From positions 1 through 51,951 of the forward strand of contig JAISUT010000019.1 of the NCBI GenBank assembly GCA_031271905.1: a DNA stretch of 51,951 bases, given 5' to 3'. Origin of the DNA: Acidobacteriota bacterium. Its GTDB lineage: Bacteria > Acidobacteriota > UBA6911. Positions 8,083 to 10,221 of this stretch are shown in pieces (position 1 is the stretch's first letter; every line of letters begins with the position of its first letter). Below the pieces are notes generated by a model, which saw nothing but the letters and a program-made list of their open reading frames with translations, did not search any database and was not told the DNA's origin. The translations under genes were made by a program, and so were the position numbers.

Positions 8083-8826
8083 CTAATAGAAGCTTTTGAC
8101 GAGCGAACCGATGATCAGGTTCCAGCCGTCCACCATCACGAACAGCAATATCTTGAACGGCGTCGAGATCATCGCGGGCGGGAGCTGCATCATCCCCATC
8201 GAAAGCAGGATGGACGCCACCACCATGTCGATCACCAGAAACGGTATGTAGAGCACGAAGCCGATCTGGAACGCCGTCTTCATCTCCGAGATCATGTAGG
8301 CGGGGATCACGACGCGCATCGGGACGGCATCGGCGCTCTTCGGGCGCGGCAGGCGGGCGATCTTCATGAAGAGCGCCAGATCCTTCTCCCGCGTGTAGCG
8401 CAGCATGAACCGGCGCAACGGGACGCTCGCCTTGTCCAGCGCCTGCATCTCGGTCACCTTGCCGTCCATCAACGGCTGCAACGCCTCCTTGTTCACCCGG
8501 TCGCAAACCGGCTGCATGATGAACCAGGTCAGGAACAGCGACAGGCCGATCAGCACCTGGTTCGGCGGCATGGTCTGCGTGCCCAGCGCCTGCCGGATGA
8601 AATGCGAGACGATGATCAGGCGCGTGAACGAGGTGACCGACATCAGGATCGCCGGGATGACGGTCAGCACCGTCAGCAGGATCAGGATGCGCACGGGGGT
8701 GGTCAACGTCCCGTCGCCGCCGCCGATGCGTATCTCAAGGCCCGCGCCTCCCGGCGCAGCCGACGCCGACGCCTGGCACAGCAAGGTCACAGCCACTACG
8801 GGCAATGCAGACAGAAGCTTTTTCAC
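8083..8826 (-). CDS. fliP: Flagellar biosynthesis protein FliP
   Basis: 247 residues with a cleavable signal peptide (MKKLLSALPVVAVTLL...ASA), as in other FliP proteins. Family blocks include LTVIPAILMSVTSFTRLIIV, RQALGTQTMPPNQVLIGLSL and EMKTAFQIGFVLYIPFLVID, then VASILLSMGMMQLPP. It forms the pentameric core of the export gate. The start is GTG, overlapping the fliO stop in a TAGTG junction, so translation is coupled to fliO. Confidence 0.97.
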   Translation of the reverse strand: MKKLLSALPVVAVTLLCQASASAAPGGAGLEIRIGGGDGTLTTPVRILILLTVLTVIPAILMSVTSFTRLIIVSHFIRQALGTQTMPPNQVLIGLSLFLTWFIMQPVCDRVNKEALQPLMDGKVTEMQALDKASVPLRRFMLRYTREKDLALFMKIARLPRPKSADAVPMRVVIPAYMISEMKTAFQIGFVLYIPFLVIDMVVASILLSMGMMQLPPAMISTPFKILLFVMVDGWNLIIGSLVKSFY

Positions 8827-9701
8827 TACTGCTCCAGCGCTTCGCGCAACCGGCGCATCTTCAAGCGGATGTCCTCCGGCGGCATGTTGCCTGTGTACTG
8901 CATCGAGCTCGGCGGAGGCGCCGGGCGCTTCTTCTCGATCTCGAAGATGTTGCGGAAACCCTTGCCCTCGGCGCCCTCCTCCGCCGCCACGACGGGCGCG
9001 CCCTCGCCAACCATCGATTCAACCAGCGAGACCTGCCCCGGCAGGTTCGCCAGCAGGTTGACCTGCCCCGGCGTGCTCCCCAGGAGGAATCGGCTGCCCC
9101 CCACCTCGACCAGGGAGAGGGAGCGCTTGTCGCCCAGGCTCAGGGTCTCGATGAGCTTGAGGTTGTTGCCGCCGGCGACCTTGGGGAACGGGAACATCCC
9201 GGGGGCGAATTTCCGGACGCCGAAATAGGCGGCGCCGAGCAGGCAGAGCACCAGTCCCAGCCCCCCCAGCGTGCGCAGCATGGAGATCTGCGGCGGCCCC
9301 TCTTGGAACGGATACCCTTCCCCGTCCTCGGACGCGGCCGAGACCGTCGGCGCGGCGCCGTCCTCGCCGTCCGACGCGGACGATTCGTCGCCCACCCCCC
9401 CGGCGGCGGTCACGTCTGCGGCGACGGCGACGGGTTTGGCGGCCTTCTTGGGTTCGACCTGCCGCTCGGCCTTCGTCTCAGGCTTCTTCGCCGCCTTGGC
9501 GGCTTTCTTGGACGACGGATTTTTCTTCGCGCCCTCACCCCCCGCATCGGCGGAGTCGACGGAAGCCGTCGAGCCCTCTGCGGACGGATGCGCGACAGCT
9601 TCCGCGTCGCCCGCGACGCGGGCGGCGTCCTCCGCGCCTTGGGGGAAGGCTGCGCCCAGCCCCAACGCCAACGCCAGAAAAATCGGCAGAATCCCTCTCA
9701 T
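8826..9701 (-). CDS. fliO: Flagellar biosynthetic protein FliO, long N-terminal extension
   Basis: 291 residues, much longer than typical FliO (about 100-150). An N-terminal signal peptide (MRGILPIFLALALGLGAAF) is followed by about 110 residues of low-complexity Ala/Lys/Glu/Asp-rich sequence (for example KKNPSSKKAAKAAKK). A single membrane span lies near residues 139-155 (LGGLGLVLCLLGAAYFGV). The FliO domain follows, with LIETLSLGDKRSLSLVEVGG and FLLGSTPGQVNLLANLP. FliO assists assembly of FliP. The extended periplasmic segment is the odd part. RBS: AGGAGAG before the ATG at 9701. Confidence 0.9.
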   Translation of the reverse strand: MRGILPIFLALALGLGAAFPQGAEDAARVAGDAEAVAHPSAEGSTASVDSADAGGEGAKKNPSSKKAAKAAKKPETKAERQVEPKKAAKPVAVAADVTAAGGVGDESSASDGEDGAAPTVSAASEDGEGYPFQEGPPQISMLRTLGGLGLVLCLLGAAYFGVRKFAPGMFPFPKVAGGNNLKLIETLSLGDKRSLSLVEVGGSRFLLGSTPGQVNLLANLPGQVSLVESMVGEGAPVVAAEEGAEGKGFRNIFEIEKKRPAPPPSSMQYTGNMPPEDIRLKMRRLREALEQ

Positions 9702-9726: not shown

Positions 9727-9911
9727 GCAATGGGACCAGCGCCCTGCAACATCAAAAACTTTGCCTCCCTGACGGTCTTTTTTCCGCCATACCGCGTTGT
9801 CGTCACTCGCCGTGGCACCACGACGCCTCGTTCCTCCGCCTTGTCTGACGAAAAAATCCTCTCCGGTTAGGCAGTATTTAGATGTTACAGGGCGCTAGTT
9901 TTTCCCAATGC
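9727..9911. mobile_element. MITE-like element or structured RNA with imperfect terminal inverted repeats
   Basis: Within the fliN-fliO gap, AGCGCCCTGCAACATC (9738-9753) is matched inversely by GATGTTACAGGGCGCT (9881-9896), 15 of 16 bases complementary. Further out, GCAATGGGA (9727-9735) pairs with TCCCAATGC (9903-9911), 8 of 9. The interior has no ORF, is more AT-rich than its surroundings and has an internal hairpin around 9808-9825 (GTGG-CA-CCAC core). It could be a non-autonomous transposon or a structured operon RNA. Confidence 0.55.
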
Positions 9912-9924
9912 GTCCCAATGTTGC

Positions 9925-10221
9925 CTACGCCGGGGTGTTCAGGTCGGTTATGCGGATGCCGGTGGAGCTTTCCAGCTCCATCACCTCCCCGAACGCCACC
10001 AGCTTGCCGTTGATGAGGATATCGACGTTCTCGCCGGCGGATTTCGGCAGGTCGATGACCGAACCGGATTGCAGCCTCAGGATGTCCAAGACCTTCATGC
10101 GGCGTTCGCCCAACTGCACCGTGACTTTCAGCGGGACGTCCATGAAGCCCTGCAACTCCCTGATGGTGCTTTCGTAAGAAAGCGCGGCTTCGTTTTTCCG
10201 GTTTTCCGGCATCTCGTCCAT
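9925..10221 (-). CDS. fliN: Flagellar motor switch protein FliN
   Basis: 98 residues, consisting of a short N-terminal tail and one SpoA (surface presentation) domain: DVPLKVTVQLGERRMKVLDI, then SGSVIDLPKSAGENVDI and LINGKLVAFGEVMELESSTG. The canonical pattern includes NGKLVAxGEV. FliN forms the lower part of the C-ring and an export docking site. It begins 13 bp after fliL with AAGGAAG upstream. fliM, which nearly always lies between fliL and fliN, is missing, so the C-ring scaffold must be encoded elsewhere. Confidence 0.94.
   Translation of the reverse strand: MDEMPENRKNEAALSYESTIRELQGFMDVPLKVTVQLGERRMKVLDILRLQSGSVIDLPKSAGENVDILINGKLVAFGEVMELESSTGIRITDLNTPA

Follow-up and report, generated by a model that had tools for sequence, protein, structure and literature searches.

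What is the stretch of non-coding DNA that lies between fliN and fliO in the flagellar operon of an acidobacterium, and does it serve that operon or has it come from elsewhere? The question arises in a contig of Acidobacteriota bacterium (JAISUT010000019.1), analysed here over 51,951 nucleotides (the window), in which fliN (9925..10221, minus strand; PF01052 E 2.9e-20) is followed downstream by fliO (8826..9701, minus strand; PF04347 E 2.1e-12) after a spacer of 223 nt. The original prediction offered two readings of this spacer, either a MITE or an RNA structure that controls the stoichiometry of the switch and the export gate, on the basis of a 16-bp inverted repeat with one mismatch that was thought to be extended by an outer 9-bp repeat. 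The inverted repeat is indeed present, with its left arm CCAGCGCCCTGCAACATC at 9736..9753 and its right arm GATGTTACAGGGCGCTAG at 9881..9898 (both given on the plus strand), and the two terminal inverted repeats (TIRs) match at 16 of 18 positions, or with a single mismatch when trimmed to 16 bp. The left arm begins with CCAG, a mutated form of the CTAG target, and the right arm ends with an intact CTAG. As predicted, the DNA that they enclose (127 bp, for a predicted length of about 130 bp) is non-coding, with no open reading frame of at least 60 amino acids, and the element is poorer in G+C than the window (55% versus 65%). No other such pair of arms (16 bp, at most one mismatch, spacer of 100-200) occurs in the window, and 17 of 20 shuffles contained none at all. 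The whole element (9736..9898, assigned to the minus strand to match its core) is 163 bp long with the CTAG-type tetramers at both ends, or 157 bp between the TA dinucleotides, and it has the size (<500 bp), the non-coding sequence and the terminal inverted repeats of a MITE.

A whole-genome search found five full copies of 9736-9898 (E 1.8e-92 to 2.4e-56), namely the one in the window and four further copies on contigs C7, C25, C36 and C46, which are 90-93% identical over about 160 bp and lie at unrelated sites, in various gene contexts and orientations; the copy on C25 adjoins a tRNA-Ser gene. When the copies are aligned with their flanks, similarity ends at CTAG or a one-base variant of it on both sides, and the flanks beyond are unrelated. 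Most ends read C-TA-G, which fits a duplication of TA or CTAG and is indistinguishable from conserved TIR sequence, and several ends are altered (CCAG at the left end here; in other copies, a single end reads CTAA, CTGG or TTAG). The outer 9-bp repeat (9727..9735 and 9903..9911, plus strand) also exists, its halves matching at eight of nine positions with one mismatch, and it is found at the fliN-fliO site only. Since it is missing from the other four copies, it is host flank outside the element, and it can be counted neither as an extension of the arms nor as a part of the element. In this host flank, CCCAATG occurs twice in tandem at 9899-9920, with a near-complement at 9727-9735, which suggests that the insertion site held a small, older palindrome. 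A further match on contig C60 was rejected as a copy, being a partial or degenerate stretch of 62 bp, and a 25-base match in genome G019 was treated as chance because the surrounding sequence is unrelated. A sequence search of nine genomes of the same genus found no copy, and an exact 27-base pattern of arm and interior had no match in 84,980 genomes, a set to which the source genome does not belong.

In eight relatives (six of the same genus and two of the same family), fliN and fliO are separated by only 4-14 nt, and none of them carries the element at this junction. Given this difference from the 223 nt found here, the element is an insertion into a once-tight operon. The comparison holds at the level of the operon rather than base for base: the short spacers of the relatives contain no CTAG and hence no base-exact empty site, and about 60 nt of the 223-nt spacer lies outside the MITE, beyond what the insertion accounts for. 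Multiple copies, conserved arms, a common target tetramer and uninterrupted junctions in relatives all support the MITE reading of the original prediction, and we conclude that the element is very probably a MITE that an ancestor of this strain acquired by insertion at a CTAG between fliN and fliO. The element in the window is probably a fossil, because the other copies diverge from it by 7-10%, four of the five copies carry one altered terminal tetramer, and the only transposase sequences found are remnants.

As a non-autonomous transposon, the MITE would have depended on a DDE transposase acting in trans on its inverted ends, presumably one that targets TA within CTAG (IS630-like or IS5/IS427-like). 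Both families are possible mobilisers, and this genome yielded no intact mobilising transposase with these ends. That the mobiliser is an IS630-family element of this genome stands at about an even chance. Two IS630-family transposase remnants (L029:1342-1756 and L030:1367-1640; NF033545 E 3.9e-15) have CTAG-bounded ends, both ending CTAGTACACTGTAAAAATC, and their ends CTAGTACACTGTAA have 11 of the first 14 bases in common with the MITE end; however, both are internally deleted, with no intact copy, and elsewhere the same core occurs under TIRs that resemble IS5/IS427. The remnant in L029 is missing most of its catalytic domain, and its reading frame continues past the terminal CTAG into host DNA. 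An isolated end at C19, CTAGTACACTGTAACATCTAA, is closer to the MITE end than the IS630 remnants are. At L021:1440-1518, a lone transposon end CTAGTACACTGTAACATCTAACATG, which adjoins a gene resembling cinA by eye, is intermediate between the ends of the IS630 remnants and those of the MITE.

Mobilisation by an IS5/IS427-type element is a serious candidate as well, which we place somewhat below an even chance. The TIRs of sister MITEs, for example TTAGGGCCTGTCTGACAAATC and CTAGTGGCCTGTAACAG, which we take to belong to the IS5/IS427-like family, and a CTAG-flanked IS5-type element with DUF4096 in another genome of this phylum (G164) have a similar start, and the existence of this IS5-type element also speaks against the IS630 alternative. 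Nevertheless, DUF4096, the one IS5 subgroup searched for, has no match in this genome (G000), and likeness of such short ends is weak evidence. Although the IS630 remnants here and the IS5-type element in G164 resemble the MITE in ending in CTAG-bounded repeats, the MITE encodes no protein, and a covariance model of its core (see below) finds no core in the tested IS loci.

The interior of the MITE contains a conserved hairpin core of about 75 nt (9780..9854, minus strand; 82.4 bits with model R1), which consists of an outer stem, a 5' RA bulge, a GGCG/CGCN stem, a 3' CAA bulge and an apical hairpin with tandem G.A pairs, so that the near-invariant motifs RAGGCG and CAACGC flank opposite bulges in a covarying hairpin. 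In an alignment (A4) of sixteen cores collected by sequence similarity (BLAST) and aligned by MAFFT, 118 paired cells are doubly changed, versus 44 in shuffles and 25-41 in slid controls, and the covariation score is 0.560 versus 0.182. Many apparent mismatches are tandem G.A pairs, at positions where other lineages have Watson-Crick pairs. Covariation is similar in a second alignment, built from 33 model hits, but this set leans to the model that found it. Covariation indicates that the hairpin is maintained but not why, since palindromic DNA can keep complementary arms without any function of the fold. Rfam 15 gave no match up to E 1 for the window and seven loci, and no earlier description of the core was found in Rfam or in the part of the literature that was searched.

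To what extent is the core distributed beyond this genome? The covariance model found it in 92 of 396 genomes of this phylum at E<=1e-3 and in 29 of 296 Actinomycetota genomes (the phylum of Rs511_bin70) at E<=1e-4, in a scan with rough E-values and 12-16 candidates scored per genome. Across 23 loci (91 kb), the model matched MITEs only, with no match outside an element at E<=0.1. In the window, it gave one additional weak match inside a gene (20 bits, E 0.0019), and low-scoring matches in the genome scan may therefore include false positives. The core is also present in Streptomyces plasmids, a Coriobacteriales MAG, a ribosomal operon of gut Clostridia and faecal phage scaffolds. A BLAST search with the interior of the element matched Vescimonas fastidiosa, Streptomyces plasmids and a human faecal phage scaffold, and a follow-up search with the Vescimonas core added another faecal phage scaffold at E 0.07, with a fold that agrees; the TIR pattern and a gapped core pattern gave no match in viral contigs. 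G164 contains a further copy. In the six genomes that were measured (G001, G011, G063, G164, G202 and G253), the unit that repeats spans about 160-280 bp, mostly with CTAG-type ends, and the core lies near one end under a TIR that differs from genome to genome. A simple test for a gapless inverted repeat (at least 17 of 22 positions, starting at TA) detected one at 10 of 45 sampled core loci and none at the others. The core recurs across several phyla, in MITEs whose terminal repeats differ.

Of 84,980 genomes, just two named ones, Coriobacteriales Rs511_bin70 and Pelotalea chapellei, contain an exact match to the TIR of the window element (CTAGYGCCCTGTAACATC), and in a Geobacterales locus (L072) the TIR is present and the core absent. 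In the Coriobacteriales MAG, where CTAGYGCCCTGTAACATC occurs on six contigs, there are MITEs with ends nearly those of the window MITE; two MITE types occur, and one of them aligns with the window element through the interior (score 70 versus a shuffle maximum of 27). No IS630 transposase was found in this MAG. At L067:6176-6540, a MITE of the second type abuts one of the first type at a common CTAG.

From these patterns we infer a role for the core in the mobility or the maintenance of its MITEs. A broader proposal, which we hold only tentatively and just short of an even chance, is that the core marks a previously undescribed cross-phylum MITE superfamily, in which a structured module with two conserved opposing bulges is selected for a role in mobility or host interaction and does not change, whereas the terminal repeats do and the mobilising transposase may as well. 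MITEs are usually regarded as what is left when a single local transposon decays by internal deletion, with interiors that do not matter. In these elements, by contrast, no part is as widely conserved as the interior, where paired changes keep the fold while the terminal repeats vary from genome to genome. Should the fold prove functional, bacterial MITEs would contain a working part that has gone unrecognised, and one covariance model could detect them across phyla. The bulges RA and CAA, conserved in a strand-specific way within a covarying stem, could also point to a single-strand hairpin substrate that is moved like REP/RAYT or integron attC, with the CTAG arms being secondary, but this is very unlikely because the copied unit, where measured, is the whole element of 160-280 bp and not the core alone.

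Described MITEs offer partial parallels. The repeat unit of pneumococcus (RUP) is similarly non-coding, about 107 bp long, with TIRs resembling IS630-Spn1 and a tight fold that includes the TIRs; it differs in sequence and host, and no cross-phylum core is reported for it in the description consulted (PMC3049150). The Chunjie MITE of Geobacter uraniireducens (178-235 bp) is described as likewise having a copy inserted in an operon (PMC10969869).

Returning to the MITE between fliN and fliO, its effect on the flagellar operon is probably incidental. The other reading in the original prediction, a cis-acting RNA that evolved in the operon to set the FliN : FliOPQR ratio, is highly improbable, since, despite a strong predicted fold of the minus-strand (sense) RNA (-86.8 kcal/mol, z -7.8) and a position exactly between two functional blocks, the same element stands in other gene contexts in its four further copies, is missing from this junction in all eight relatives and has no Rfam match. 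Because of the strong fold, a side effect of the MITE is possible: it would presumably be transcribed in the flagellar operon as a strong hairpin, and it probably separates the translation of fliN from that of fliO. By analogy with the Correia elements of Neisseria, MITEs transcribed into a hairpin that RNase III cuts at the TIRs (PMC10969869), the hairpin may offer an RNase III site, although the window element has different ends and no promoter-like site was found in it. A scan for promoters and terminators, including Rho-independent terminators (a GC stem followed by a U-run), found none, and the insertion is expected to be tolerated because there is no terminator U-tract and fliO has its own ribosome-binding site (AGGAGA) before its start. 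A comparable case is found in Vescimonas fastidiosa (NZ_AP023416.1, L075:1278-1583), where a 306-bp spacer between the genes for ribosomal proteins S14 and S8 contains the core, antisense to the genes of the operon. Hairpins of this kind inside operons are insertions, and annotating them as local regulators would be a mistake. In the copy on C7 (L002:1497-1664), which lies between two convergent reading frames, the terminal tetramers of the element supply the stop codons TAG and TAA.
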